Positions 5,932-18,142 of a stretch of DNA of 20,370 nt are shown here, piece by piece. Position 1 is the stretch's first letter. Every line of letters starts with the position of its first letter. The translations under genes were made by a program, and so were the position numbers. The notes under the pieces are model-generated. The model worked only from the letters and a program-made list of their open reading frames with translations. It searched no databases and was not told where the DNA came from. Source of the stretch: a virus; the IMG/VR virus record IMGVR_UViG_3300022696_000049, positions 1 through 20,370 of that record; one strand, 5' to 3'.

Positions 5932-6344
5932 CAGAGCACCAGTCCTTTCGAGAGGTCACGCGCCAAGGAGACGCGAAAGTCGGAGACGATCGCCGACTCG
6001 CCCGCGATCATCGCCGGTACCATGAACGGAGACGCCGGCATCTTCCACGTACCCGTTTCGTGAAGCGTGAGGTACCAGCCGGGTCCGGTCGGTCCGACGG
6101 CATACTCGACGTTGCTCGGCGAGGACGCGTCGCGGTCGAGCCCAGCCGCGATGAACTGATACGCATGCGTCGGACCGATCCCCCGGGGAGCGAGCGCCTT
6201 CATGAACTCGACGAGAGTCTCCGACCCACGGTCGACCGCGCTCTCGAGGTACTTCCCCTGCAGGCGGTCCGGGAGGATCGCGAGCTTCCTTTGAAGCTCC
6301 TCGACGCCCTCGAATACCGCGCTGAACTCCGAGTCTCTCGCCAC
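5931..6344 (-). CDS. HK97 gp10-like head-tail/tail component
   Basis: I start this 137-residue protein at GTG 6344, which overlaps the TAG of the frameshifted chaperone by one base and has a GAGGGA ribosome site just upstream. An upstream extension in this frame would only read chaperone DNA in the wrong frame. The protein shows the gp10-like pattern: GVEELQRKLAILPDRL (13-28), a helix ending KALAPRG (49-55), VEYAVGPTGPGWYLTLHETGT (79-99), then KMPASPFMVPAM (101-112). The 'hEtGT.kmpA.PFm.PA' tail is diagnostic of this neck/tail-completion family. It normally lies between the head adaptor and the tail terminator; here it is displaced to just before the tape measure. Confidence 0.75.
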   Translation of the reverse strand: MARDSEFSAVFEGVEELQRKLAILPDRLQGKYLESAVDRGSETLVEFMKALAPRGIGPTHAYQFIAAGLDRDASSPSNVEYAVGPTGPGWYLTLHETGTWKMPASPFMVPAMIAGESAIVSDFRVSLARDLSKGLVL

Positions 6345-6843
6345 TATTTCCCTCGCTTCGCCTTCGACATCAGGCGGTTGAGTCCGGCCTTCTCCTGCTC
6401 CCGGTGAGAGATGAAATTCAGCCGGCGGAACTCCTCCCGCCAAACCTCGAACTCCCATTGGTCCAACTCGCCTACCTCGGCGAGCGTTTTCCCGAGCTGC
6501 TGTGCGACCCAGAGCCGAACGCGTCCCCCGGGGAGACGCGCAATCAGCCGTTTCCCGAGTCCTCGTCTCCTTCCTTTTCGAGTCCGTTGATCTCGAGGAC
6601 CGCGTCCTGAATCCGCTTGAAGACCTGCATCGGCCATTCGTCGAGCTCCTTCGGCGTCACGTCCCGGAGCTTCCCGTCTTTCGAGGAAGCCGAGATCATG
6701 TGCGCCGTCAGCACCATCGGGTTCGGGTCGTCCCCGTGCTCGGCGACCATCTGCTCGAGCTCCTTCACCTTCAGCGCCCGAAGCACGTACTCCTCGCCGT
6801 CCACATCGACGGTCGTCTTCTTGACTGCAAACCGGCTCTTCAT
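6344..6843 (-). CDS. Tail assembly chaperone, -1 frameshift product (gpGT-like fusion)
   Basis: This is the predicted long chaperone made when ribosomes slip back one base at 6550-6556. The zero-frame part (98 codons from 6843) joins a second frame that starts CGG CTG ATT at 6550 and runs to TAG at 6344, adding 68 residues for a total of about 166. The added part begins RLIARLPGGRVRLW, contains LDQWEFEVWREEFRR (a Trp-rich segment typical of the downstream frame of these chaperones) and ends in a basic tail. In lambda-like siphophages the G and GT products coat the tape measure and recruit tail tube subunits. Location between the major tail protein and tape measure fits exactly. Confidence 0.82.
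6520..6556 (-). promoter_or_regulatory. -1 programmed ribosomal frameshift site: GGGAAAC slippery heptamer plus downstream hairpin
   Basis: On the minus strand the heptamer G GGA AAC occupies 6556-6550, in the correct phase (X XXY YYZ) relative to the chaperone zero frame and two codons before its TGA stop at 6546-6544. Nine bases downstream an almost perfect inverted repeat at 6540-6520 can form a stem of CGCGT with ACGCG extended by C-G and G-U pairs around a GC-rich loop. Spacer and stem suit a -1 stimulator. The lambda G/GT site is GGGAAAG, so this is the same class of signal in the same gene. Confidence 0.88.
6544..6843 (-). CDS. Tail assembly chaperone, short zero-frame product (gpG-like)
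   Basis: A 99-residue acidic protein with an ATG at 6843 preceded by AGGAGGT eight bases upstream, the best ribosome site in the tail module. It begins with a basic beta segment and continues VDVDGEEYVLRALKVKELEQM, the usual start of phage tail assembly chaperones. It ends with a charged tail (LEKEGDEDSGNG) whose last codons contain the slippery heptamer. It is 25 bp downstream of the major tail protein gene. The short form should be the abundant product, with the fusion made at low frequency. Confidence 0.82.
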   Translation of the reverse strand: MKSRFAVKKTTVDVDGEEYVLRALKVKELEQMVAEHGDDPNPMVLTAHMISASSKDGKLRDVTPKELDEWPMQVFKRIQDAVLEINGLEKEGDEDSGNG

Positions 6844-6868: not shown

Positions 6869-7279
6869 TTACGTCGAGGTGCTCCGCGTGAGCTCCCCGG
6901 CGGAAACGAGCGACAGCGTGAAGACGCTCCGCTCTCCCCAGTCGCCTTCGGCGGGTCCAAACGACTCGACGAGGCAGGTCCCGGCATACTGAGGGTTCGT
7001 GTTGCTAACGCCGGCGGTCGACGACGGCCTCCACTTGATCGTCCCGGTCGAGCTACCGACGAGAGCGAAGAGCTTCGCGTCGACGGCGGTCGAAAACTCG
7101 GCGTTCATCTGAACCTGAACGGCCCAGTTCTTGACTCCTCCCTTGTTGATCTGCGTCAGGTCGCCGTAGGCTCCAAACTCCACGGCGTTCGCTTCGTAGT
7201 CCCAGGCCAGGGAGAACGCTTTCTGGTCTAGGTCGAGCCCGTCGAGCTCGATGTACGGCTTCAGGTACGGTCCGAACAT
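6869..7279 (-). CDS. Major tail (tube) protein
   Basis: A 136-residue protein with an ATG at 7279 and TAA at 6869, placed between the tail terminator and the tail assembly chaperone, the fixed position of the tail tube protein in siphophages. The sequence is beta-rich with short polar turns: GPYLKPYIELDGLDL near the N-terminus, AVQVQMNAEFSTAVDAKLFALVG in the middle, and GTIKWRPSSTAGVSNTNPQYAGTCLVESF later. That last stretch follows the usual pattern in which an assay-like 'v.wrp...avs.tNP.y.g...i' strand is followed by a final hairpin. No Ig-like C-terminal domain is present. The assignment rests on gene order plus length and beta character; the family signature is moderate. Confidence 0.75.
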   Translation of the reverse strand: MFGPYLKPYIELDGLDLDQKAFSLAWDYEANAVEFGAYGDLTQINKGGVKNWAVQVQMNAEFSTAVDAKLFALVGSSTGTIKWRPSSTAGVSNTNPQYAGTCLVESFGPAEGDWGERSVFTLSLVSAGELTRSTST

Positions 7280-7290
7280 GGTAGGTCACC

Positions 7291-7713
7291 TCACTCCGAA
7301 TGATGAATGGTCCACTGCTGTAGCACGCGGAAGGTCCGAGACTCTTCCTCGTACCAGTCCTGCTCCGTGTTCAGTAAGGTGCCCCTGATGCGGGGAGCCA
7401 CGGATCCCCCGCTCCAGCCCTGTAGTGCTTCTCTCACCGCGTCGGCGAGCGCGAGCGACTCCGCGACCGACTCCGCGTATGCGTCGATCTGTACGGTAGC
7501 CGCAAGGTGCCCGTACGTCTCCGACCCGAAGGTCGGCCAACGCCGAGCGGCGACTCGGTAGATGGCGAGCGCCGGCATCGTCTCGTTCTGCTTCAGCGTC
7601 CTCATCGGCCGGATCCTGGGCTCGTCCGCCCCGGTCGACCCGACGAGGTTCGTGATCGCCGGGATCGTCGAGAGGTAGGAGTAGAGCCCGGCGTAGATCG
7701 TCGTGGTCGCCAT
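7291..7713 (-). CDS. Tail terminator / tail completion protein (DUF3168-like)
   Basis: A 140-residue protein starting at ATG 7713, which overlaps the TGA of the upstream adaptor by 4 nt. The frame stays open further upstream, but that part reads adaptor DNA out of phase and I reject it. The pattern is typical of the family: an N-terminal helix (IYAGLYSYLSTIPAITNLVG), a strand with PRIRP, then PALAIYRV, a helix AESLALADAVREALQGW, and a C-terminal RTFRVLQQWTIHH strand. These proteins cap the finished tail tube and provide the surface that joins the head. Position after the head closure protein and before the tail tube gene agrees. Confidence 0.75.
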   Translation of the reverse strand: MATTTIYAGLYSYLSTIPAITNLVGSTGADEPRIRPMRTLKQNETMPALAIYRVAARRWPTFGSETYGHLAATVQIDAYAESVAESLALADAVREALQGWSGGSVAPRIRGTLLNTEQDWYEEESRTFRVLQQWTIHHSE

Positions 7714-8756: not shown

Positions 8757-9689
8757 TTAGAAGTTGTCGATCACCCAGTCGAGGGTCTGCTTCGCTCCGA
8801 TCGCCCGCTCCTTCGTCAGCTTCGCGTGCTCGATCGCCTTGGTGGCCTCGCCGATCGTACGGCCGTGAAGGTCCCGCTTGTAGGTCAGCTTCGTGAAGAG
8901 CTCGTCATCGCCCCAGCCGTAGAGGACCCGACTCTTGACGAGGTCCGAAACCTCCGGAATCGTCACCTTGATGCCGAGCCCGACGGCGACGCCGACCCAG
9001 TACTCGACGCCCGGGCGCTGGGTCTGATATTCCTCCTCGGTCGCCATGTCGATTCCCCAAATCCCGATCTCCTTCGGCCCTCGCTCCGGCTCGGCGACTC
9101 TCATCGCGCAAGCGTAGGCGAGCATGTAACCGACGGTGTTCGTGAAGTACATGTGGGGGAACGTCTTCCGGATCATCTCGAGCGGATACCGGACCGAGCT
9201 CGGCACCGCGGGGTGAACCTCCTGCATGAAGATCGGCTTGTTGTGATTCGCCGCGAGAAAGCGATGGTAGTCCGCTCGCTGACGCTCCTGAGCCGGCTTC
9301 GGCGTCTCTCCGTCGAGTCGCTCGCAGAGGCGGTCGTAGGGGTGGATCTCGAACCATGCATTCCAGCGGGGGATCCCCGTATACATCCGCGAGAGCGACC
9401 AGACGTCCCAGGACGGATCGTCGAAGGGTGCCGTCTCCCAACCGTGCGCGGAACCGACGATGAGGATCCGCTGCGGAAGGTCCGCGTTCTCGGCCGGCGG
9501 CGGCGATACCTTCGGCTGCCGGGGAGTAGACGCCGAGCTCTCGATCACGACCTCTCGCTCGGCTCCCGGTCGGGGTGCCTCCGAGGAGTCGTCGTCGTGT
9601 AGCTCCAGTCTCGGCCCCGCCGTCGAAGGCTGAGGCGAGTCTCCGTCCATGATCGTGTCCTTACGCGTCTTCTTGTCGTCGTCGCTCAT
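8757..9689 (-). CDS. Rossmann-like phage protein next to capsid gene, putative glycosyltransferase (unproven)
   Basis: A 310-residue protein. I choose the ATG at 9689 with GGGG six bases upstream; a second ATG at 9701 lacks a good ribosome site. Residues 1-70 are acidic, Pro/Ser-rich and probably disordered. From residue 74 a nucleotide-binding-like fold begins with RILIVGSAHGWETAPFDD, then WDVWSLSRMY, WNAWFEIHP (109-117), YFTNTVGYMLAYA, IGIWGIDMA (208-216), QRPGVEYWVG (224-233) and GLGIKVTIP. Phage proteins with this 'WGiDM...QRPg.eYWiG' pattern are usually left hypothetical. The 'ivGsa.s' opening and 'G.DM' strand recall the MAF/DUF115 and GT42-like folds that transfer nonulosonic acids, which would suit the nearby NeuA/NeuB pair. 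The fold is moderately supported; enzymatic function is inference. Confidence 0.5.
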   Translation of the reverse strand: MSDDDKKTRKDTIMDGDSPQPSTAGPRLELHDDDSSEAPRPGAEREVVIESSASTPRQPKVSPPPAENADLPQRILIVGSAHGWETAPFDDPSWDVWSLSRMYTGIPRWNAWFEIHPYDRLCERLDGETPKPAQERQRADYHRFLAANHNKPIFMQEVHPAVPSSVRYPLEMIRKTFPHMYFTNTVGYMLAYACAMRVAEPERGPKEIGIWGIDMATEEEYQTQRPGVEYWVGVAVGLGIKVTIPEVSDLVKSRVLYGWGDDELFTKLTYKRDLHGRTIGEATKAIEHAKLTKERAIGAKQTLDWVIDNF

Positions 9690-9716
9690 GATGTGCCCCA
9701 TCGTAGAGGAGCCCCA

Positions 9717-9763: not shown

Positions 9764-11053
9764 TTAGGTGGTCGCTCGGATACACCGGAACGCCTTCTGA
9801 GCGGGAGTCGTCGACGGCTGTACCGCACGGCCGTCGCACCGCATGTAGCCCTGGAGCGCGAACACGCCCTCATCGGCGTACCGCTCGGTGAGCCGGAGCA
9901 TGAACATGCCCCGGACATCCCGGACCATGTAGTAGTTGAACGCTCCGAAGAGCACCGGCTGAGTCGTCGACCCGGCGGTCGCGAAGCTCCCCAGGTCCTG
10001 ATTGATGTAGACCGGGTAGCCCAGAAGCATGTCCGGAGAGCCGGCGGTCAGGCGCGGCTCCCAGAGGTACATGCCGCGATCGGCAGCGGCCGTGCTCTCT
10101 CGGATCTTCCGGAGAACCTTCCGCGTGTCGTCGTTGAACATCCAGCCCGCTCCCGGCAGACTCCGGTACGCCGGGTCAACCGACGCCTCGAGGTCGTGAA
10201 GGAAGTCGAAGCTGACCGGGATTCCCGAGATCGTGGCCGACCCGGAGGTCGCCGCGATGATTCCCGCCGGGCCGGTCGAGCCGACGGTCATGTCGGTGTT
10301 CATTTTCCGACCGAACCGGATCCGCATCGCGTCCCGGACGATCGATTCGATGCCGATCGCGTCGTCCTGCTCGAGCTCGAAGCTGATCTTGATCGGACCG
10401 CTCCGGTACATGTGTGCCCCGAGCGTCACCGACCCGAACGGTACGCCGGTCGAGTTGGTCGACTTGACCGCCTCGCCGACGAGCTTCGCGCCGTTCCCCG
10501 TATCGTCCGAGCGGGGCCAGGGCAGGTCGCGCCCGGTCGCCGTCTCGAAGACCCGGCCGGCCTGACGGATCCCTCCGTACTGCTTCAGCGCGGTGATGAG
10601 CTCGGCACGGAAGTCCTCGGGAACGAGGTAGCCGCCAGCGGCCGGAGTACCGACGACCTGCTTCGCCAGAGCTCGCGTCTCGGTCAGCGTCTCGCGCTGT
10701 TCGCGCGTCAGCCGAGACATCTCCCCGGTGCCGGTCCGCATCGCGGTCCAGAACGCGTCGCGGTACCGCTCCTCATACTGCTCGGGATCGAGGTCGCGCC
10801 GACCCGCCCGCTCGAGAACATCCTGCGTGATCTCGCGCTCTTCGGCCCGCGACTCGAGCCGAGCGAGATCCTCCTCGATCTTCCGAGCTCGCGCGTCGAG
10901 CCGGTCGCACTCGTCCATCTTGCGATCGAACTCGACCTGCTCCTCGGAAGAGAGGTCGCGACCTTCGGCGGTCGCGTCGTCGTAGAGCTGCCTGGCCTGC
11001 GTGAAGAGCTTCGCCCGCTTCGCCAGGAGCTCATTCGCCTTACCAAGAGACAT
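9764..11053 (-). CDS. Major capsid protein, HK97 fold, with N-terminal delta (scaffolding) domain
   Basis: A 429-residue protein, ATG at 11053 with GGAGGGA at 11063-11057 as a strong ribosome site. Residues 1-75 are a charged coiled coil (RQLYDDATAEGRDLSSEEQV, then ECDRLDARARKIEEDLARLE), the delta domain that acts as an internal scaffold and is removed by the prohead protease. The mature core should begin somewhere between residues 110 and 140. It opens with GGYLVPEDFRAELITALKQY, a hallmark of HK97-type capsids. It continues through the E-loop/spine region (AGRVFETATGRDLPWPRSDD), GWMFNDDTRKVLRKIRES and LLGYPVYINQDL. It closes with the P-domain strand LFGAFNYYMVRDVRGMFMLRLTERYADEG. No separate scaffold gene is present. 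Confidence 0.93.
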   Translation of the reverse strand: MSLGKANELLAKRAKLFTQARQLYDDATAEGRDLSSEEQVEFDRKMDECDRLDARARKIEEDLARLESRAEEREITQDVLERAGRRDLDPEQYEERYRDAFWTAMRTGTGEMSRLTREQRETLTETRALAKQVVGTPAAGGYLVPEDFRAELITALKQYGGIRQAGRVFETATGRDLPWPRSDDTGNGAKLVGEAVKSTNSTGVPFGSVTLGAHMYRSGPIKISFELEQDDAIGIESIVRDAMRIRFGRKMNTDMTVGSTGPAGIIAATSGSATISGIPVSFDFLHDLEASVDPAYRSLPGAGWMFNDDTRKVLRKIRESTAAADRGMYLWEPRLTAGSPDMLLGYPVYINQDLGSFATAGSTTQPVLFGAFNYYMVRDVRGMFMLRLTERYADEGVFALQGYMRCDGRAVQPSTTPAQKAFRCIRATT

Positions 11054-11197: not shown

Positions 11198-12274
11198 TCA
11201 GCCCTCCAGATCGACGAGGTCGACGGCATCGTGTTTCTCTACCGAACGGACGAGCGTCTCGCCGATAATCTGGTCGCGCATTCCGTATCGGAGTCCGTCT
11301 CCGGGCGAGAGCATGACGAGGTGCCGCGGCTCGATCACGGTGCCCGGGTTCAGCGAGCTCGCGTAGTGAAGCGACCGCTCGAGCTTCGCCTTCGCCGCTT
11401 TGACGCCCGGGCTCATGAAGACCTCGGTCGGACCCGTCATCCCGAGCTCCGTCTCTTCGATGGATCGGAGCATCCGGTAGAGTCCTTCACGCTCGACGCT
11501 CCCGAGTTGATCGGTCCCGCGCATCCGCCGATCGAGCGTGACGTGCTTCTCGATGACCGACGCACCCATAGCCCGGGCAATCGCCGGCGCGAGGACGCCG
11601 ACCGAGTGATCGGAAAAGCCGACGGCGACCTCGCCGGTCATCTGCCACGTCTTCGCGTGAAGAGCGGGGATTACCTGCAGGTCCCACGCTTCCGGCGGAC
11701 ATGGATAGATCGACCGGCAGTGCATGACGACGAGCGGCCGGACCGAGCGAAGTATCGCGAGCGCGTCGGCGAGATCCTGCTCGGTGGCCATCCCGGTCGA
11801 GATGATGACCGAAACCTTCGACGGTAGATCCGCGGCGGCGATCGCGTCGAGGAGCGGGATGTTCGTCAGGTCCCGACTCGCGACCTTCAGGAAATTGAGG
11901 TGCGGGATCTCCGCGAGACTGCGACGGACGAGATCCGGGTGGCAAACCGTCAGCCCGAAGTCGAGCCCGACACCGCGCGTGTACTTCGAGAGCTCCGCGA
12001 GCTCGGCCATCGAGAACTCGAGCGCCATCCGGTGCGACCCGTAGTCCGGCCCGAAGCTGTTCCGGCCTTCGTACTTCGCCGCCATCATCGCCCGGGATCC
12101 CTCTTCGGAGAGCTTCCGCTTCGTGAACTTCACGGCGTTCGCGGCAAGGAGCGGGAGCTCCTCCCCCGTCGTCATAGGAGCCGGACGCGGATCCGCCGCC
12201 ATCTGAATGAGCTCCTTCGCGATCCCGAGCGACCCGTTGTGATTCTGCCCGATCTCCGCGATCACATACGCCAT
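11198..12274 (-). CDS. neuB: NeuB-like nonulosonic (sialic) acid synthase
   Basis: A 358-residue enzyme that would condense phosphoenolpyruvate with an N-acetylmannosamine-type sugar to give a nine-carbon acid. Motifs in order: IAEIGQNHNG (5-14), KVASRDLTNIPLL (130-142), VIISTGMAT (156-164), MHCRSIYPCPPE (184-195), VGFSDHSVG (218-226) and GASVIEKHVTLDRRMRGTDQ (237-256). His223 and His244 correspond to the metal ligands of characterised NeuB. Residues about 297-358 form the C-terminal antifreeze-like SAF domain (LERSLHYASSLNPGTVIEPRHLVML, then LSPGDGLRYGM). The first barrel strand reads VKFTKRKL where cellular enzymes usually have VKFQ. It is the last gene of the cassette and overlaps the sulfotransferase by 13 nt. 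Whether the product is neuraminic, legionaminic or pseudaminic acid cannot be told. Confidence 0.9.
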   Translation of the reverse strand: MAYVIAEIGQNHNGSLGIAKELIQMAADPRPAPMTTGEELPLLAANAVKFTKRKLSEEGSRAMMAAKYEGRNSFGPDYGSHRMALEFSMAELAELSKYTRGVGLDFGLTVCHPDLVRRSLAEIPHLNFLKVASRDLTNIPLLDAIAAADLPSKVSVIISTGMATEQDLADALAILRSVRPLVVMHCRSIYPCPPEAWDLQVIPALHAKTWQMTGEVAVGFSDHSVGVLAPAIARAMGASVIEKHVTLDRRMRGTDQLGSVEREGLYRMLRSIEETELGMTGPTEVFMSPGVKAAKAKLERSLHYASSLNPGTVIEPRHLVMLSPGDGLRYGMRDQIIGETLVRSVEKHDAVDLVDLEG

Positions 12275-13086
12275 ACTTCGTCCTCTCGGAGCTCACGGAT
12301 TTGACCGGTCCTCGCCCAGCGCTCGAGGAGCGGCTCCCGGCTCATCCGCGGATAGACGTTCGAGAACGCCCACCGAAACTTCGCCTCAATGAGATCGAGC
12401 GCCCGGAGGGTCCTGCGCGGATCCGCCTCGTGGACGAGATACTCCATGAACCGATCCCTCGAGTAGCCGCCCCGATTGACCTCCGGGAGCGTGATCGGCT
12501 CGCCGAGATGGTCGGCCGTAAACGCCGCGAACTGACTCCTCAGATCCTCTTGCTGCAGGAGGACGAGGTTCGGCGGCACCGTACCGGACTGCGAGGTCAC
12601 CCACCAGAGGTAGGTACCGGCAAATCCCCGGTAGAGGTTCTGCGGGTTCTCGATCATCGTCGACGGGTGGATCTGGAGGTTGTACCAGCGATGGAAGTCG
12701 CAACGCGGATCCTCGAGCCACCCGTGAATCGACGGATACGCGCTGGCCGCGAGATCGTGCTCGTGACGCCCGCCGCGCTGGTAGCGGTCGTGCCAGAAGA
12801 GGTACTGGCTCACCTGCTGAGCGTACGGGTTCCGAACGACGGCGACGACGGCCTTCCAGCTCTTCGCCGGCCGGCCGAGGAGCCGCTCGACGTCGCGTAG
12901 CGGGATGTGCCCGATCGGAAACGGGTTCTCCTTCGTCGGCTTCCGGTCGGCTTCTGGCGAGCCGAGTAGCGCCGGCATCTGTCCCTTCATCCCGGGGACG
13001 TTGTCCCAGAGCGCCTTTTTGACCGCGGTTCCTCCGGTCTTCGGGATATGAATGAAGACGAACCCGTCCTGCGTGTAGCAGCCCAT
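12262..13086 (-). CDS. Sulfotransferase-family protein (PAPS-dependent type)
   Basis: A 274-residue protein, ATG at 13086, overlapping the upstream stop by 4 nt. The 5'-phosphosulfate binding loop is clear at FVFIHIPKTGGTAVKKAL (9-26). The 3'-phosphate motif is clear at VVAVVRNPYAQQVSQYLFW (80-98), in the form RNPY...vS.Y found in carbohydrate sulfotransferases of the Sulfotransfer_2 type. A His in IGHIPL (58-63) lies where these enzymes often carry their acceptor-side base. The C-terminus has LIEAKFRWAFSNV, the usual 'Y..Df..f' helix in altered form. It would transfer sulfate from PAPS to a hydroxyl, probably of a sugar. Pairing with an APS-kinase-like gene directly upstream suggests donor and transferase are encoded together. 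The acceptor is unknown. Confidence 0.85.
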   Translation of the reverse strand: MGCYTQDGFVFIHIPKTGGTAVKKALWDNVPGMKGQMPALLGSPEADRKPTKENPFPIGHIPLRDVERLLGRPAKSWKAVVAVVRNPYAQQVSQYLFWHDRYQRGGRHEHDLAASAYPSIHGWLEDPRCDFHRWYNLQIHPSTMIENPQNLYRGFAGTYLWWVTSQSGTVPPNLVLLQQEDLRSQFAAFTADHLGEPITLPEVNRGGYSRDRFMEYLVHEADPRRTLRALDLIEAKFRWAFSNVYPRMSREPLLERWARTGQIRELREDEVWRM

Positions 13087-13820
13087 CAGTCGCTCCCCTC
13101 CTCCCGCGACGCGCGGATCTTCGTCCCGCTGATCTCCTCGATGACCGCCGGCGGCTTGTGCTCGACGATCCCGTAGCCGACGCCGCGCCCGTACTCGACG
13201 GACAGAACGTTCCGGATGACGCCGACGCGAACCATGTCGCCGAGGTGAGCGTACTCGTCTCGGATCTCCCTCGCGATCTCTCCCGCGTCTCGCTCCTCCG
13301 TCGTATCGCGGACCAAGACCTGAACCGGGTCGCCGCGCTGGAGCGCCTTCGCGAAGAGCCAGCGGTGCCCATCGTGAAACGTCTGGTACCTCCCGATGAA
13401 CGTAGCGCGAGGACGCTTGTAGTGCTCGTGAACGAGCCGCCGCACTTCCGCGAGGTCCGGGTCGATCGCGTCCGGGTCCTCCGGCTCTTCGTAGCCCTCA
13501 TACCAGTACTCGCGCCGGACGCCGTAATGCTTCTGCATGTAGAGTTCGAGCGCGTTCACCTTCCGCTTGAGCTCGTCGCGCTGATCCGCGAACGGCTGCT
13601 GAAGCGATACGGCGACCCTGTGCCCGAGCCCATGAAGGTATAGCGCGATCGCGTGAGCACGCCCGACGTTGACCATCCGGCCTGCGCGGTCATACCCAGG
13701 GTTCGACAGCGCCCGGAGCTCGTCCCCGTCGACCACGAAGTCGACGACGTCCGCCTCCTGTAGCTTCCGCGCCAGGGTCGTCTTCCCGCAGCCGGCCTGT
13801 CCCGTCAGCATGATGATCAT
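13086..13820 (-). CDS. APS-kinase-like domain fused to HxGH nucleotidyltransferase domain
   Basis: A 244-residue two-domain protein. Residues 1-110 are a P-loop kinase of adenylylsulfate-kinase (CysC) type: LTGQAGCGKTTLARKL (5-20), DGDELRALSNPGYDRAGRM (31-49), and NVGRAHAIALYLHGLGHRV (51-69) followed by VSLQQPFADQRDELK (71-85), equivalent to the CysC 'iSPy...R' segment. Residues 137-244 are a small adenylyl/cytidylyltransferase: TFIGRYQTFHDGHRWLF (140-156) with HDGH as the HxGH motif and ISGTKIRAS (230-238) as the ISsTxIR motif. CysC makes PAPS from APS. The transferase half resembles NMN or cytidylyl transferases and is far shorter than ATP sulfurylase. The sulfotransferase next door favours a PAPS role; an NAD-salvage role (NadR-like, domains swapped) is the main alternative. 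Confidence 0.8.
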   Translation of the reverse strand: MIIMLTGQAGCGKTTLARKLQEADVVDFVVDGDELRALSNPGYDRAGRMVNVGRAHAIALYLHGLGHRVAVSLQQPFADQRDELKRKVNALELYMQKHYGVRREYWYEGYEEPEDPDAIDPDLAEVRRLVHEHYKRPRATFIGRYQTFHDGHRWLFAKALQRGDPVQVLVRDTTEERDAGEIAREIRDEYAHLGDMVRVGVIRNVLSVEYGRGVGYGIVEHKPPAVIEEISGTKIRASREEGSD

Positions 13821-14113
13821 CGGCCGGCCTCCGTCTTGGCCGCGAGACTCCTAAACGCCTGATCCTGAATCGCCGCGAGGAGTCCGCCGAGCTCGATCGA
13901 CGCCTCGTGTTCGGTCCCCTCGGTTACGCCCTGGATCCAGTCCGAGAGCATTACGCCGACGCCGGCGACGAGCTCCGACCCGGTCGCCCTGACGACCGTA
14001 TGCACCGTGAATCCTCCTTCCTCTTCGTTCTCCTCGACCTTGAGCCGAACGATCTCCTTGGCGTCGATCGCCTCGAAACCGCCGGCCCCGGGTCCAATTG
14101 CTTCCGTCGTCAT
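13817..14113 (-). CDS. Unrecognised 98-residue acidic protein in the modification cassette
   Basis: ATG at 14113 with AGGGG about six bases upstream. The start overlaps the stop of the DUF2061 gene (ATGA) and the TGA at 13817 overlaps the next start in the same way, so it is translated as part of the cassette. The frame is open further upstream but only as out-of-phase reading of the membrane gene. The protein is acidic, with EIVRLKVEENEEEGGFTVHT as a likely strand pair and GVGVMLSDWIQGVTEG and LGGLLAAIQDQAFRSLAAK as amphipathic helices. No transmembrane segment, Cys pair or catalytic motif is visible. I do not recognise a family; a small accessory or regulatory partner is possible. Confidence 0.65.
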   Translation of the reverse strand: MTTEAIGPGAGGFEAIDAKEIVRLKVEENEEEGGFTVHTVVRATGSELVAGVGVMLSDWIQGVTEGTEHEASIELGGLLAAIQDQAFRSLAAKTEAGR

Positions 14114-14358
14114 CGTGCCCCCTGCTTTTGAGAGTCGTCGGTCGCGGGTCGGTCGAGCCCGACTCTCTTCAAGCTCGATTCCCAAAGGTGCTCGAACGCC
14201 CAGTATAGACCGACCTTCATCACGAAGTCGCCGGCCGAGATCGCGAGCGCGAGCCGTAGATCCCATGTGACGCCGAACGCGATCAGCCCGGTGACGAGCA
14301 TCGCAAGGACGCGGTACGTCACGGCCTTGAACAAGAACGTCATTGCGCGGTCGTTCAT
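14110..14358 (-). CDS. DUF2061 family small membrane protein
   Basis: An 82-residue protein, ATG at 14358, with 4-nt overlaps at both ends. It has two hydrophobic helices (residues about 17-31 and 35-53) in the DUF2061 pattern: FKAVTYRVLAMLVTGLIAFG, then LRLALAISAGDFVMKVGLYWAFEHLW, matching the family 'KaitwRilas..t...a....g....A..i...e...K...Yy.hErlW'. The C-terminal 20 residues are polar and probably cytoplasmic. DUF2061 has no proven function. From memory it is often found with adenylylsulfate kinase genes, and here an APS-kinase-like gene lies one gene downstream. A membrane role connected to sulfate or its activated form is a reasonable guess only. Confidence 0.8.
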   Translation of the reverse strand: MNDRAMTFLFKAVTYRVLAMLVTGLIAFGVTWDLRLALAISAGDFVMKVGLYWAFEHLWESSLKRVGLDRPATDDSQKQGAR

Positions 14359-14657
14359 CCGAAAAACTCCGAGTCATGACACGCCCGGTCGTCGATGTAG
14401 CGATGAGCGAACGGCTTCGGATGAAGCTCGTGGAACCGTACCTGCCAGCGAGCGAGCTGGCGTCGGGTCATCTGGAGGATCTCGGCGCGGACGGCGAGGA
14501 GCTCCGACTGACCGCGAGCCGTAGCGATGATGATGTGATGCCCGCGAGCGTAGAGCTCGTTCACGCGCTCGATCCGGTCCTCGATCGGTTCGGCGTTGAC
14601 GTAGTCCTGTCCCTCGGTTCGGCAGAGCGTACCGTCGAGATCGAAGCAGAACCTCAT
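14355..14657 (-). CDS. Minimal HAD-superfamily phosphatase
   Basis: A 100-residue capless HAD protein, ATG at 14657 overlapping the neuA-like stop (ATGA). Motif I is FCFDLDGTLC (3-12) with Asp6 as predicted nucleophile and Asp8 as acid/base. Motif II is the threonine of IIIATARGQ (42-50), motif III is probably Lys81, and motif IV is YIDDRA (87-92). All catalytic elements are therefore present despite the small size. Proteins of this type are often annotated as capsule-biosynthesis phosphatases. Placement next to a CMP-sugar synthetase suggests it removes phosphate from a sugar-phosphate intermediate, but it could equally act on a nucleotide such as the PAP left by sulfotransfer. Confidence 0.8.
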   Translation of the reverse strand: MRFCFDLDGTLCRTEGQDYVNAEPIEDRIERVNELYARGHHIIIATARGQSELLAVRAEILQMTRRQLARWQVRFHELHPKPFAHRYIDDRACHDSEFFG

Positions 14658-15340
14658 GGGCGCAGCCCCCAGAGCCGCTGGTGAATCGGCCAGAGCATAC
14701 GAGCGGCTCGGAGGTCTTCATGGTCGTCGACGTCGAGCGCCCGGAGTGGATGGACTTCGACGCAATTGACGGGAGCCTCCCAGAAGCCGCGCCGGATGAA
14801 CCGCTCGAGCGACGCCACGTAGACGGTCCCGTTCACGTAGAGGTCAGGGTCGCGGATCGCCTGACGCGGGTTCTTCGCGTTCTCTCGAAAGCCGACGCCG
14901 CCGCCGGGGAGCGCCTCAAGTACCTGATGCTCTCGAAACGACGCGCGGCTCGCGCCGACGACCGTCGTACCAGTGTCAGCGTAGAGCTGTATGGCCCGCG
15001 CGATGTCGTCGTCCGATCGGAGCGGCTGAGTGACGAAGAGCCGGACGATCGTGTCGAACGGAGCGAAGACGTGCGGGAACAGCGCGATCGCGTCCCGGGT
15101 CTTCGCCTCCGGGAGCTCGTCGTCTCCGACCTCTCGGTCGATAAGCATCGTCTCGTGCCCGAGCTCGCGAGCGTGCTCCTCGTGCTCCTCGGCGTCCGTA
15201 ACGAGGACGACGTGATCGCACGTCCGCTTCCCCTGCTTGAGCGCAATCTCGATCAGGCTCTCGTAACCGAGCCGCTGCATGTTCTTCCCGGGCAGACCTT
15301 TCGATCCGCGCCGGGTCGGTACTACCGCGATTGTCTTCAC
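14654..15340 (-). CDS. neuA: CMP-nonulosonate (sialate-type) cytidylyltransferase
   Basis: A 228-residue enzyme using GTG at 15340 behind GGAGGGG. It would activate a nine-carbon acid sugar with CTP to give the CMP-sugar used by glycosyltransferases. The N-terminal mononucleotide-binding motif VVPTRRGSKGLPGKN (6-20) is close to the canonical 'ipARgGSKgiPgKN'. Further signatures are FVTQPLRSDDDI (102-113), DLYVNGTVYVA (166-176) and ALDVDDHEDL (201-210), the last with the metal-binding Asp pair. Length is normal for NeuA/LegF/PseF. It is the first gene of the cassette, 26 bp after the protease gene. Sequence does not separate neuraminate, legionaminate or pseudaminate specificity, and KDO transferase (KdsB) is less likely given NeuB nearby. 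Confidence 0.88.
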   Translation of the reverse strand: MKTIAVVPTRRGSKGLPGKNMQRLGYESLIEIALKQGKRTCDHVVLVTDAEEHEEHARELGHETMLIDREVGDDELPEAKTRDAIALFPHVFAPFDTIVRLFVTQPLRSDDDIARAIQLYADTGTTVVGASRASFREHQVLEALPGGGVGFRENAKNPRQAIRDPDLYVNGTVYVASLERFIRRGFWEAPVNCVEVHPLRALDVDDHEDLRAARMLWPIHQRLWGLRP

Positions 15341-15366: not shown

Positions 15367-16017
15367 TTACCGAGTCGTCTCCCAGCCGGCGCGCTCGGCG
15401 AGGCGGATGCGGTTCGCTCGCATCCGGGTAGCCAGATCCTCTTCTGCCTCCCGCTCGGCGTCCTCGAGCTCGCGCATCTCTGCCCTCGCCGCGTCTCGCG
15501 CCTCGAGCGCCGCCTCGACGTCCCGCTCGCCCAGGTCGGTATTCGGGTTCGCCGGAATCGCCACGGGAGACACCTCGAGGATGTCAGCGCCGAGGATCGT
15601 CCGCAGGTCCGGCAGCCCGCCTTCCCGGTCGATCTCCCACGCCTGCTTTCGGACCCGGAACCCGACGCTCATCTTGTCGACGAGCCCGGTCCGGATCGCT
15701 TCCGCCTCCTGAACCCGCGAGGACGGAAGTGGGAACTCGACGGCGAGCCCTTTCTCGTCCTTCGAGAGCTGAAGCGTCCCGTTCTTCGTCCGAGCCAGTG
15801 GGATCCCAGAGTCGTGCGACCAGAACGCGAAGACGTCCGTCTCCTGAATGTCGTCGCGGACCGCCGCCGGGTCGAACTGCTCCTGGAAGTCCATGACCTC
15901 ATACGGATCGTCGAACGTCAGCGCGTGGCCCCGGACGACGAACTCGCCGCCGTCCTCCTCCTCGGCCTGCCTGACCTCGAGATCACGGACCACGAGGGTC
16001 CTCTTCTCCATCCCCAT
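15367..16017 (-). CDS. HK97-family prohead protease
   Basis: A 216-residue serine protease that matures the capsid. I start at ATG 16017, which has GGAGG five bases upstream (AAAGT spacer) and lies 16 bp after the portal stop; longer upstream reading has no such signal. Motifs: VVRGHALTFDDPYEVMDFQEQFDPAA (a 'GyAl.Fd.....d....E.f.pga' pattern) and VFAFWSHDSGIPLART with the catalytic His. These are followed by LVDKMSVGFRV with the catalytic Ser and ADILEVSPVAIPANPNTDL, the classic 'EvSlV..PaNp.a' strand. The last 45 residues are a highly charged helix that may aid co-assembly with capsid subunits. The gene normally precedes capsid directly; here a seven-gene cassette separates them. Confidence 0.92.
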   Translation of the reverse strand: MGMEKRTLVVRDLEVRQAEEEDGGEFVVRGHALTFDDPYEVMDFQEQFDPAAVRDDIQETDVFAFWSHDSGIPLARTKNGTLQLSKDEKGLAVEFPLPSSRVQEAEAIRTGLVDKMSVGFRVRKQAWEIDREGGLPDLRTILGADILEVSPVAIPANPNTDLGERDVEAALEARDAARAEMRELEDAEREAEEDLATRMRANRIRLAERAGWETTR

Positions 16018-16033
16018 ACTTTCCTCCTTTCCG

Positions 16034-18142
16034 CTACGCGGGTCGAATGACGCAGTCACAGCCCTTGTGAAACGGCGGGTGACCGACTCGTTTCTTGAAC
16101 TTCAGCGGGAGCGCCTTCCCGGGCGCGGCGAGCTCGTCGCCGGCGTTGAAGAACGACCCCGCTATGTCGACGGTCCTCCCGTCGATGGCTCGGCAGTAGG
16201 GGCAGGAGTCGCCGACCGTCCGGGCGACCATCGCCGCGACGCCCATCGCTCCCCACGCCCACTTCGAGATCCCCTGATTCAGCTCGTTGATATGACGCTC
16301 GGCGATCCGGTCGGCGCGAGTCGTCTCGACACCTTCGCCCTTCCAGCGCTCGAGTACCTCGGAGACGCGATCCTCCGGCTCCCCGCGGTCGATTTTCGCC
16401 TCGATCTGCTTTCGGCCGCTCGCGGCGATTCCGGCGATCGCCCTCTCCGTGTATTCGCGGATCCAGCGGGCGACGTCGTCGTCCTCCGGCTCGACTCCCG
16501 GAGCGATCTCGACCGCCTCGCGTACCGCCGGCCCGAAGACCGCCATCCCGTAGGAGCGGAAACCCGGGCCGAGGACGGTGTCCGCGAAGTCCGGGAACCG
16601 CTCGAAGTAATACCGGCCGAGCTCCTGACGGAACGCGTCGCGATCAATGACCTCTCCCTCGAGCCGCTTCGCGACGAGCTTGCCGACCTCTCGTAGCTCG
16701 CCGCGCACGAGCCGCTCCGCTCGGTCCTGGAAGTCTGGGAGGAACGCGTCGCGCAGATCGAGTCGCTCCTCGAAGGACCGCCGCTCGACCGCGGACCGAA
16801 CGCGGATCCCCGGAGCGCCACCGCCCGCTTCGTCGTCTCCCCCGGGCGGCGTAGGATCGGCGTCGTCGCCGCCGCTCATCGTGTTCCGAAGCACATCGGC
16901 TACCATCGAGAGCGGGATGTACTGCTGCTGAACGAACGGCTCGTCACCGCCGGCGATCGGGTTCTCTCCCTCCTCTCCGCGGATCTCGTTCGGCGTGATC
17001 GAGGCGGCGTTGAACCGGGCCTGGTAGTAGGCGGTCCGCGCCGCAACGTCGCCGCGTAGGAGCTCGCGCAGGTCGAACTCGACGGAGAGCCGAGCCCCGA
17101 TCTCGTCCGGCCGGAAGAGCTGCGAAAGGATCGACTGCTTCCAGCGCGTCAGCCACGGGAGGAGCGTGTCCTGAAAATACTCGAGGTTCTGCGCGTCGAT
17201 GTTCGCCCACTTCGCGTCGGCCATATCGCCGATCTTATGCGGGGGAATGTTGAACCATCGAGCGATCTCGCGGACCGTGAACTTCCGGCTCTCGATGAAC
17301 TGCGTATCCTCGGCGTTCATCGTGATCGGGTTGAACTTCATGCCCTCCTCGAGTACCGCGACCCGGTGCGCGTTCGAGCTTCCGCCGTAGAGCATTTCCC
17401 AGCGCCGGCGTAGCGCGTCCTTCGCTTCCGGGGAGAGCGCGTTAGGGTGCTCGAGCGTACCGCCCGGCGTCCCTCCGTTCGAGAAGAACCGCGAGCCGTA
17501 GTCCTCCTGACCGAGCGCCGCGCCGATCGTTTCCCTCGCGTACTTGATGACCGACCAGCCGCGTAGCGCGTCGCCGCCGACTCCCTTGACGCGCAGGACG
17601 CGCTCCCAGGAGAGAACGGTGCCTTTCTCGCCCGACGCGGTGGGGAGCAGGATCACGGCCGGAACCTTCGAGCCGCGAGGACCGACCGAGAGGAGCTCGA
17701 TCTCGTACATATCCGGGTCGAGGAGATGAAGCGACTCGAGCTCGCCGAGCCGGCCCCGGGTCCGCTGAACGTCCGCGACCATGTTACCCCGGAGGAGGAG
17801 GTGCGTCATCGCGTCCTCCTTGAAGCTCGCCGCGATCACGCCCGGAGCCGCCTGCACGTTGAGCAGGTACCCGAGCGGGTGCTCCGTCACCGGGTCCTTG
17901 GTCCGGCCGTCGGCCCTGTACTGAACGATCCTGACCGGGAGAGAGCCCACGCTCCCAGCAATCGTATTGACGGCCGCGTAGACCGCGCTGACCTGCTTCG
18001 CCGTCGTCGCGTTGACGATCGCCCCGGCCGCAGAGCGGGATCCCCCGCCGAGCACCTCGAGGATCGAGTATCCGTCCGAGAGTGGAACGTTTGGGTTCTC
18101 GAGCGTGACGCCCGCTCGCCTATCGGTCAGAAAAGAGATCAC
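16034..18142 (-). CDS. Portal protein fused to C-terminal MuF-like domain
   Basis: A 702-residue protein with a GTG start at 18142 overlapping the membrane-protein stop (GTGA). Residues 1-415 are an HK97-type portal: QVSAVYAAVNTIAGSVGSLP (50-69), EHPLGYLLN (87-95), EDAMTHLLLRGNMVADVQR (109-127) and REIARWFNIPPHKIGD (291-306), which form the DNA-entry dodecamer at one capsid vertex. A Gly/Asp/Pro linker (423-446) leads to about 255 more residues. This part ends with CPYC...DGRTVDIAG and GHPPFHKGCDCVIRP (687-701), the Phage_Mu_F signature with His and Cys residues. MuF proteins usually come from a separate gene after portal and are minor head proteins thought to be ejected or to help assembly. 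The single long frame shows no stop at the join. Confidence 0.9.
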   Translation of the reverse strand: MISFLTDRRAGVTLENPNVPLSDGYSILEVLGGGSRSAAGAIVNATTAKQVSAVYAAVNTIAGSVGSLPVRIVQYRADGRTKDPVTEHPLGYLLNVQAAPGVIAASFKEDAMTHLLLRGNMVADVQRTRGRLGELESLHLLDPDMYEIELLSVGPRGSKVPAVILLPTASGEKGTVLSWERVLRVKGVGGDALRGWSVIKYARETIGAALGQEDYGSRFFSNGGTPGGTLEHPNALSPEAKDALRRRWEMLYGGSSNAHRVAVLEEGMKFNPITMNAEDTQFIESRKFTVREIARWFNIPPHKIGDMADAKWANIDAQNLEYFQDTLLPWLTRWKQSILSQLFRPDEIGARLSVEFDLRELLRGDVAARTAYYQARFNAASITPNEIRGEEGENPIAGGDEPFVQQQYIPLSMVADVLRNTMSGGDDADPTPPGGDDEAGGGAPGIRVRSAVERRSFEERLDLRDAFLPDFQDRAERLVRGELREVGKLVAKRLEGEVIDRDAFRQELGRYYFERFPDFADTVLGPGFRSYGMAVFGPAVREAVEIAPGVEPEDDDVARWIREYTERAIAGIAASGRKQIEAKIDRGEPEDRVSEVLERWKGEGVETTRADRIAERHINELNQGISKWAWGAMGVAAMVARTVGDSCPYCRAIDGRTVDIAGSFFNAGDELAAPGKALPLKFKKRVGHPPFHKGCDCVIRPA

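Follow-up and report, generated by a model that had tools for sequence, protein, structure and literature searches.

A nonulosonate and sulfation cassette in a phage head module, with a candidate transferase and a candidate C-terminal acceptor tag on virion proteins

We analysed the complete 20,370-base IMG/VR record IMGVR_UViG_3300022696_000049 (the window, meaning this whole stretch of DNA), which is probably a genome fragment of an uncultivated phage, so genes missing from it cannot be judged. Between its prohead protease and major capsid genes lies a cassette of seven genes (positions 11198-15340), which reads as a set for the synthesis and activation of a nonulosonate, a sialic-acid-like sugar, and for sulfation. 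The functional unit reaches past these coordinates to gene 8757-9701, next after the capsid gene, whose product is a predicted nonulosonate transferase. On balance we favour the view that cassette and transferase gene form a virion-glycosylation system, in which a nonulosonate would be made, activated with cytidine monophosphate (CMP), attached to C-terminal Ser/Thr residues of shell proteins and probably sulfated. The candidate transferase beside the capsid gene and the candidate acceptor tag are new beyond the first-pass annotation of this DNA.

A candidate transferase and its association with nonulosonate genes

The 314-residue product of 8757-9701 matched no Pfam, PHROG or NCBIfam family. 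Its AlphaFold2 model had a predicted local distance difference test score (pLDDT) of 81, and half of the residues (157 of 314) scored at least 90; the N-terminus was modelled with low confidence, and a long helix forms the C-terminal end. VIA-align placed the flagellin glycosyltransferase Maf (5mu5) at the top (Z 9.8, 165 residues aligned, 3.7 A), followed by CstI/CstII (Z 9.7-9.2, with 2p56 and 1ro7 at 9.7) and a Pasteurella sialyltransferase (Z 9.2), while human sialyltransferases scored lower (Z 7.1-6.3, ST8SiaIII at 7.1). When a profile of the phage family (76 sequences) was searched against the PDB, the first nine sequences were all sialyltransferases (E 0.014-0.12); the MptE-like family PF01973 was touched by two of the 76 members (best E 0.03) and not by the window protein. 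The predicted model thus shares the Maf-CstI/CstII fold, and genes for a CMP-nonulosonate donor stand alongside in the window. By modelled fold the protein would be of the nonulosonate transferase type, and the pyrophosphokinase branch also fits by fold alone.

A pattern scan of IMG/VR recovered at least 574 relatives of this protein. The family is almost missing from named phages (one of 50,697 records) and, as far as a pattern scan can detect it, from bacterial and archaeal genomes, where one relative turned up among 44 matches, on a contig of a Bacteroidetes metagenome-assembled genome (MAG). Of the 41 loci with both genes, 33 have the start of the transferase gene no more than 1.4 kb downstream of the capsid gene. 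To describe its company, 39 of 80 transferase-selected loci, on contigs of at least 12 kb, were set beside 23 of 79 new terminase-selected loci chosen by the same rule. NeuB was present in 21 of the 39 transferase records, NeuA in 21 and both in 20; NeuB was found in none of the 23 controls (Fisher P 3.9e-6), in which full records were searched for NeuB and not for NeuA; a single control, L173, has the transferase. Among records of at least 30 kb, NeuB occurred in 11 of 14 transferase-selected and 0 of 5 terminase-selected ones. Across all 80 terminase-selected loci, NeuA and NeuB were found together in one (L023, 5.9 kb) and in none of the 52 that include a capsid gene. Conversely, NeuB and the transferase were both present in every capsid-holding locus selected by NeuB (six) or by sulfotransferase (four, one of them on the contig of a NeuB-selected locus).

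In 22 loci including the window, 11 of them transferase-selected and two contigs counted twice, a capsid gene shares its fragment with NeuA or NeuB. The genes occupy the terminase-portal interval, the protease-capsid interval or a place after the capsid gene. The arrangement is therefore recurrent, with NeuA and NeuB in the head modules of diverged phages. The first-pass annotation had described the cassette as inserted between protease and capsid genes; this holds in the window, and it is only one of several slots among relatives, so we dropped the strict form of that reading.

A Ser/Thr doublet at the C-terminus of virion proteins

The candidate acceptor, here called the tag, is defined by the last two residues of a protein both being Ser or Thr, and was counted in open reading frames (ORFs) of at least 90 amino acids. 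In the window it is found on 2 of 24 listed ORFs, only the major capsid protein and the major tail protein. It was first noticed by eye in genes between capsid and transferase, and the discovery-set counts are not independent tests. This set comprised 92 transferase-bearing loci from three queries (NeuB, transferase and sulfotransferase) and included near-identical contigs as well as contigs present twice (L011 and L040, L020 and L113); clusters were used to limit redundancy, the statistics were made without a tree-based background, and in control locus L159 the head genes, which are on the other strand, were left out of the count.

Tagged ORFs numbered 163 of 1290 on these loci; on 51 transferase-free loci selected by terminase they numbered 7 of 525. 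At least one tagged ORF was present in 73 of 92 transferase-bearing loci vs 5 of 51 controls, and 91 of 785 clusters were tagged vs 7 of 303. The proteins' own interiors predicted 39.7 tagged ORFs at the transferase loci and 9.8 in the controls. ST, TT, TS and SS were the commonest four C-terminal dipeptides at the transferase loci, and the doublet frequency was 12.6% at the C-terminus and 1-4% from the third residue inwards, encoded by 67 different codon pairs. Two simpler accounts of the doublet were considered and rejected: the position profile and each protein's own interior speak against mere Ser/Thr richness, and the presence of the tag on tail proteins led us to drop a protease signal. 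Without the transferase the tag was rare, ending 3 of 260 ORFs at NeuB loci and 2 of 620 at sulfotransferase-only loci; its presence therefore goes with the transferase rather than with NeuB or the sulfotransferase.

The association was found again in an independent, held-out set of 50 loci, which remained of 71 new ones after 21 on contigs already used had been dropped. Here 81 of 524 ORFs were tagged and 39 of 50 loci had a tag; counting only ORFs that share no 40% identity with any ORF of the discovery set, 28 of 229 were tagged (P 7e-10 vs controls), and by clusters the count was 23 of 207 vs 7 of 303 controls (P 6e-5). A single capsid family was then compared across 51 of 80 loci, those with a capsid match and at least 2.5 kb after it; this comparison is only partly independent, as discovery contigs account for six of the 32 loci with transferase and held-out contigs for at least four more. 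A tag was present in 22 of 32 transferase-bearing loci vs 2 of 19 others, and on the gene directly after the capsid gene in 15 of 32 vs 0 of 17, a contrast of which part may be gene change, since that gene differs in size between the two groups. With the six discovery-contig loci removed, 16 of 26 loci and 10 of 26 following genes were tagged. Along nine long contigs, taken from 39 long records (two in part), 12 of 115 ORFs within 5 kb of the transferase were tagged vs 12 of 347 elsewhere (P 0.006).

Capsids were tagged in 13 of 42 cases on transferase-bearing loci vs 1 of 38 in controls, and portals in 3 of 27. No tag was seen on the large terminase TerL (0/18), protease (0/22), NeuB (0/24), connectors (0/38), sulfotransferases (0/8) or tape measures (0/9), and one of 92 transferases had it. 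Most carriers lay among ORFs matching no tested family (141/983). Ten tagged proteins were scanned further, of which three matched major head proteins of different families (PHROGs 371, 267 and 1005), one a major tail protein and two tail terminators, and four were without informative match. The first-pass annotation had favoured the capsid or tail as the target of modification, and the transferase beside the capsid gene together with Ser/Thr tags on shell proteins speaks for that choice. Almost evenly poised, in our judgement, is the broader proposal that the doublet serves a phage-specific nonulosonate transferase as a short and portable acceptor, added independently by unrelated phages to capsid, decoration and tail proteins, and that virions of many uncultivated lineages wear sialic-acid-like, sometimes sulfated coats.

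A number of observations weigh against a glycosylation role for transferase and tag. Foldseek gave no PDB match to the transferase model at E 0.001 or better, the sequence link to sialyltransferases is sub-threshold (best E 0.014, profile against PDB), and the CST-I family PF06002 is touched by 2 of 76 family members (best E 0.0054) and not by the window protein. NeuB is absent from 18 of the 39 transferase records, three of them longer than 30 kb, and the tag rate is equal with NeuA or NeuB in the locus (61/498) or without (102/792). Untagged loci make up 19 of 92 in the discovery set and 11 of 50 in the held-out set, and the Bacteroidetes MAG contig (L259), which holds NeuB, NeuA and the transferase, has no tag on its 28 ORFs. 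Overall Ser/Thr content is higher in tagged ORFs (median 22% vs 12%). NeuA is tagged in 5 of 25 cases (L019, L020, L112, L113 and L057, where L020 and L113 are one contig), though it is not expected in virions. Finally, among named phages the transferase was found only in Microcystis phage Mvi-Yong1342-1, which matched none of the NeuB, NeuA or sulfotransferase profiles, and a sugar donor there would therefore have to be host-derived. In its tag, this phage speaks for the association and is a second test independent of the discovery set: the capsid, a 321-residue open frame across the record's origin, ends ...KKTS, and none of the 76 translated coding sequences (of 78 annotated) is tagged. Its transferase homologue (PP496355.1:34781-35584) is annotated as 'type 11 methyltransferase' and sits just before the terminase genes; the record also has an annotated 'sugar O-methyltransferase'.

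Several of these points would suit a different account, in which the 8757-9701 protein is a pyrophosphokinase-like enzyme or a structural factor and the tag serves assembly or protection from proteolysis. Methanocaldococcus 6-hydroxymethyl-7,8-dihydropterin pyrophosphokinase (HPPK, Z 9.2) and thiamin pyrophosphokinase (Z 9.0) come near the sialyltransferase scores in VIA-align, the gene keeps close behind the capsid gene, and the tag rate is independent of NeuA and NeuB in the locus. The missing NeuA and NeuB matches in Mvi-Yong1342-1 led us to raise our estimate for this account slightly and to lower somewhat our confidence in virion glycosylation and in the portable-tag proposal. Against it stand the co-occurrence of the transferase with NeuB and NeuA, the sialyltransferases as best PDB profile matches, and the tag on tail proteins and unrelated capsid families, a distribution not accounted for by a signal for proteolysis or capsid assembly. 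We regard it as rather unlikely, and keep virion glycosylation as the preferred explanation.

The cassette genes and their proposed chemistry

The head and tail genes of the window form an operon of HK97 type on the minus strand, in the order small and large terminase, portal, S78 protease, cassette, capsid, 8757-9701, connector and tail genes (Table 1). The cassette consists of seven open ORFs, all on the minus strand, in the order NeuA, HAD phosphatase, DUF2061 protein, 98-residue protein, adenosine 5'-phosphosulfate (APS) kinase fusion, sulfotransferase and NeuB. Overlaps at its six successive junctions measure 4, 4, 4, 4, 1 and 13 bases, and 26 bp separate it from the protease gene and 144 bp from the capsid gene. 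The coordinates, gene order and protease-capsid interval of the first-pass annotation were thus confirmed by open ORFs, overlaps and family scans. The 98-residue protein, whose best start is 14113, gave no Pfam, PHROG or NCBIfam match when scanned with six extra N-terminal residues.

Table 1 Features of the cassette and its surroundings in the window (PAPS, 3'-phosphoadenosine 5'-phosphosulfate).
Feature	Position	Strand	Evidence
HK97-type prohead protease (flank)	15367..16059	-	Peptidase_S78 104.6 bits (Pfam)
NeuA-type CMP-nonulosonate synthetase	14654..15340	-	CTP_transf_3 50 bits, cut-off 22.6
Small HAD phosphatase, possibly for nonulosonate-9-phosphate	14355..14657	-	Hydrolase_3 26.4 bits, cut-off 20.9
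DUF2061 small membrane protein	14110..14358	-	PF09834 44.9 bits, cut-off 23.1
98-residue protein, function unassigned	13817..14113	-	Without family match; start by ATGA overlap
APS-kinase-like and nucleotidyltransferase-like fusion, probable PAPS supply	13086..13820	-	APS_kinase 38.5 bits, cut-off 21.1
PAPS-dependent sulfotransferase	12262..13086	-	Profile against PDB, predicted fold
NeuB-type nonulosonate synthase	11198..12274	-	PF03102 164.6 bits, cut-off 22.1
HK97-type major capsid protein, C-terminus ...RATT	9764..11053	-	Phage_capsid 166.9 bits; proposed acceptor tag 9767-9772
Maf/CstII-like nonulosonate transferase (predicted)	8757..9701	-	AlphaFold2 model, VIA-align, family profile
Major tail protein, C-terminus ...RSTST	6869..7279	-	phrog_4574 5.1e-11; proposed acceptor tag 6872-6877

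The window NeuB qualifies as a nonulosonate synthase by its Pfam score and by conserved family residues. An alignment of 17 phage NeuB sequences had 31 invariant columns, including E7, K49, K130, H223, E242 and H244, residues that we take to have catalytic roles. The protein falls short of the N-acetylneuraminate synthase equivalog TIGR03569 (184.4 bits vs a cut-off of 399.65), and the window NeuA reached no NCBIfam equivalog cut-off (best PseF, 36 bits vs 205.7), so that it could also be a CMP-3-deoxy-D-manno-octulosonate synthetase. Since neither enzyme reached an equivalog cut-off, the window's sugar cannot be named. The HAD protein scored 43.8 bits with EcbF-BcbF, below the NCBIfam cut-off of 162, and its relatives were present in 10 of 25 NeuB-selected loci, several of them near-identical.

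Fuller pathways were found on two other phage contigs. L045 has NeuB, NeuC and NeuA between protease and capsid, with NeuC above its equivalog cut-off, and L254 has NeuB, GNAT and PIG-L proteins, a fusion of NeuA with an aminotransferase, and two proteins that stay below equivalog cut-offs, a PseB-like dehydratase and a PseC/LegC-like aminotransferase; from their gene content, nucleotide sugars appear to be the starting material for a nonulosonate in both. NeuA-like domains also occur in large ORFs, L254:4612-6627 (672 residues, the remainder being a class-III aminotransferase) and L249:5312-7345 (678 residues). The NeuB ORFs of L016, L019, L020, L021 and L022 stop short of a C-terminal domain present in other phage NeuBs, presumably the antifreeze-like domain.

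The window sulfotransferase had no Pfam match of its own. A profile of its family searched against the PDB gave heparan sulfate 2-O-sulfotransferase as the best match (E 1.2e-8), and all 33 PDB sequences listed to E 1 were sulfotransferases or of sulfotransferase fold; retinol dehydratase, AGAP001425-PA and StaL are among these 33, and we presume them to have that fold. Across the family (39 sequences) H13, P15, K16, G19, R85 and S93 are invariant, with a conserved 5' loop HIPKxG. The AlphaFold2 model (pLDDT 86) was compared by Foldseek, where the first 43 rows were all of sulfotransferase fold, the best at E 2.3e-3 and none at 0.001 or better. For the gene called an APS-kinase/nucleotidyltransferase in the first-pass annotation, the kinase half stood, with PF01583 above its cut-off and TIGR00455 at 38.3 bits, short of 138.7; the nucleotidyltransferase half was seen only below cut-off (CTP_transf_like 16.2 vs 21). 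A phrog_10255 match (1.4e-22) spans both halves.

Relatives of the APS kinase lie near sulfotransferases in L004, L115, L123, L138 and L151, all except L004 sulfotransferase-selected, and DUF2061 is near the kinase also in L004 and L151; the search for DUF2061 in plasmids returned two records. L004, which was NeuB-selected, has six of the seven cassette genes (kinase, DUF2061, HAD, NeuB, NeuA and sulfotransferase); its kinase is without the nucleotidyltransferase half, and the stretch examined has no head genes. Window-type sulfotransferases occur in head modules with NeuA or NeuB in L010, L015, L019, L020, L109, L110 and L112. The viral contigs L115 and L138 have nine and eight sulfotransferase-like ORFs, respectively, with an APS-kinase-like gene in one phage stretch, which is possibly a large sulfation locus.

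These family, profile and fold matches upheld the first-pass description of the cassette as a set of nonulosonate synthesis, activation and sulfation genes. In the pathway that we propose from them, NeuB would condense phosphoenolpyruvate with a host hexosamine or hexose to a nonulosonic acid, and since a HAD phosphatase accompanies NeuB, the substrate may be a 6-phosphate. The HAD enzyme would then take off the phosphate after condensation. NeuA would form the CMP-sugar, and the Maf/CstII-like protein would move the sugar to the C-terminal Ser/Thr tag of shell proteins, which in the window are the major capsid and major tail proteins. PAPS would come from the APS-kinase fusion, and the sulfotransferase would use it to put on sulfate, most likely on the sugar. 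The resulting coat, with its negative charge, might shield the particle or serve as a ligand. The first-pass interpretation, that the phage makes and activates such a sugar and sulfates something late in infection, is partly supported, in its sugar and sulfation genes and in the virion as target; late expression, sulfation of that same sugar and the reactions themselves are predictions.

The same enzymes could instead act on the host surface, placing sugar and sulfate on host glycans such as capsule, lipopolysaccharide or S-layer, blocking superinfection or changing the receptor, with their place in the head operon reflecting late timing only. NeuA, NeuB and sulfotransferases in bacteria usually serve surface glycans, and the cassette includes the DUF2061 membrane protein. 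CMP-nonulosonate can evidently serve other ends, as NeuB loci L002-L009 and L013 have no transferase of the 8757-9701 family in the stretch examined. Pfam scans, which covered the window ORFs apart from the small terminase, 7291-7680, 6869-7279, 6344-6637 and a small ORF between terminase and portal, turned up no polymerase, flippase or lipid-linked transferase; moreover, the associated transferase resembles the protein-modifying Maf and the acceptor-like tags on capsid and tail track it. We consider a host-surface target unlikely.

Service to host sulfur or amino-sugar metabolism, with the head-operon place incidental, appears very improbable. APS kinases do occur among viral auxiliary genes, and operon insertions can be neutral; set against this, NeuA, NeuB and the sulfotransferase recur in several slots of the head modules of diverged phages, a sulfotransferase consumes PAPS and does not assimilate it, and no ATP sulfurylase or cysteine synthesis family turned up in the Pfam scans. 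Modification of phage DNA by these enzymes is scarcely credible to us, although passages available from one source describe phage glycosyltransferases that decorate DNA (PMC12619734). The Pfam scans of window ORFs turned up no base-modification family, and the tag is on proteins. We know of no CMP-nonulosonate chemistry on DNA.

If virion glycosylation is correct, phages make and wear sialic-acid-like sugars using their own enzymes. This would matter for the charge of the particle, for how it adsorbs to mucus or cells, and for how immune systems and bacteria recognise it. It would also give a large family of transferases, of which the window member matches none of the family databases searched, a function, and would yield a rule for predicting modified virion proteins, namely Ser/Thr as the last two residues plus a transferase gene beside the capsid gene.

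Of the neighbouring genes, the portal gene (16034-18142) encodes 702 residues, with the portal domain spanning 52-392. The remainder, with its Cys/His-containing end, had no Pfam match, and we assume from resemblance that it is a MuF-type head domain.

Comparison with known virion and flagellin glycosylation

No description of this phage combination was found in the literature searched, whose coverage leaves out most subscription papers and preprints; the first-pass annotation, which knew of no such described system, agrees with this. The primary study of mycobacteriophage virion glycosylation is reportedly that of Freeman et al. 2023. Virion glycosylation itself is known: according to passages available from PMC12619734, the capsid and tail tube subunits of mycobacteriophages are glycosylated at their C-termini, and phage-encoded virion glycosylation in Che8, Corndog and Myrna is cited in the available parts of PMC12619734, PMC12363180, PMC11256854 and PMC13313380. 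The likeness to our system lies in phage-encoded glycosyltransferases and in capsid and tail tube C-termini as glycan sites (PMC12619734, in part). The ends differ, as the Che8 capsid and tail proteins finish in ...NKTGS and ...SDGS, with GS and not a Ser/Thr doublet, and none of eight Myrna head and tail protein ends is a doublet. The enzymes differ as well, since Che8 gp108-110 match Pfam families of GT2 or GT25 type (for gp109 below cut-off, and for gp108 together with a methyltransferase match) and score below 0 bits with the window transferase profile, so the window transferase is not of the Che8 kind. In the passages available from the four sources (PMC12619734, PMC12363180, PMC11256854 and PMC13313380), CMP-nonulosonate genes and a sulfotransferase are not mentioned for the mycobacteriophage systems.

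The bacterial nonulosonate pathways offer a second comparison. The N-acetylneuraminic acid pathway (NeuB-NeuC-NeuA) is matched in L045 and pseudaminic/legionaminic-type genes (PseB-PseC) in L254, whereas the window fragment has only NeuB, HAD and NeuA of such pathways. CstI and CstII of Campylobacter, which belong to CAZy family GT42 and of which the known acceptors are oligosaccharides, resemble the phage protein in fold and give the best sequence-profile matches to its family; identity is 17-18% over the aligned part, and the sequence match is sub-threshold.

The closest solved fold to the 8757-9701 product is that of Maf, whose solved chain has 632 residues vs 314 in the phage protein. From the passages available, Maf O-glycosylates Ser/Thr of flagellin with nonulosonates from CMP-sugars, and no conserved sequon is known (PMC11339370), so a two-residue C-terminal nonulosonate acceptor, as we propose for the phage system, would be unusual. 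By analogy, that system looks like the mycobacteriophage target combined with Maf chemistry.

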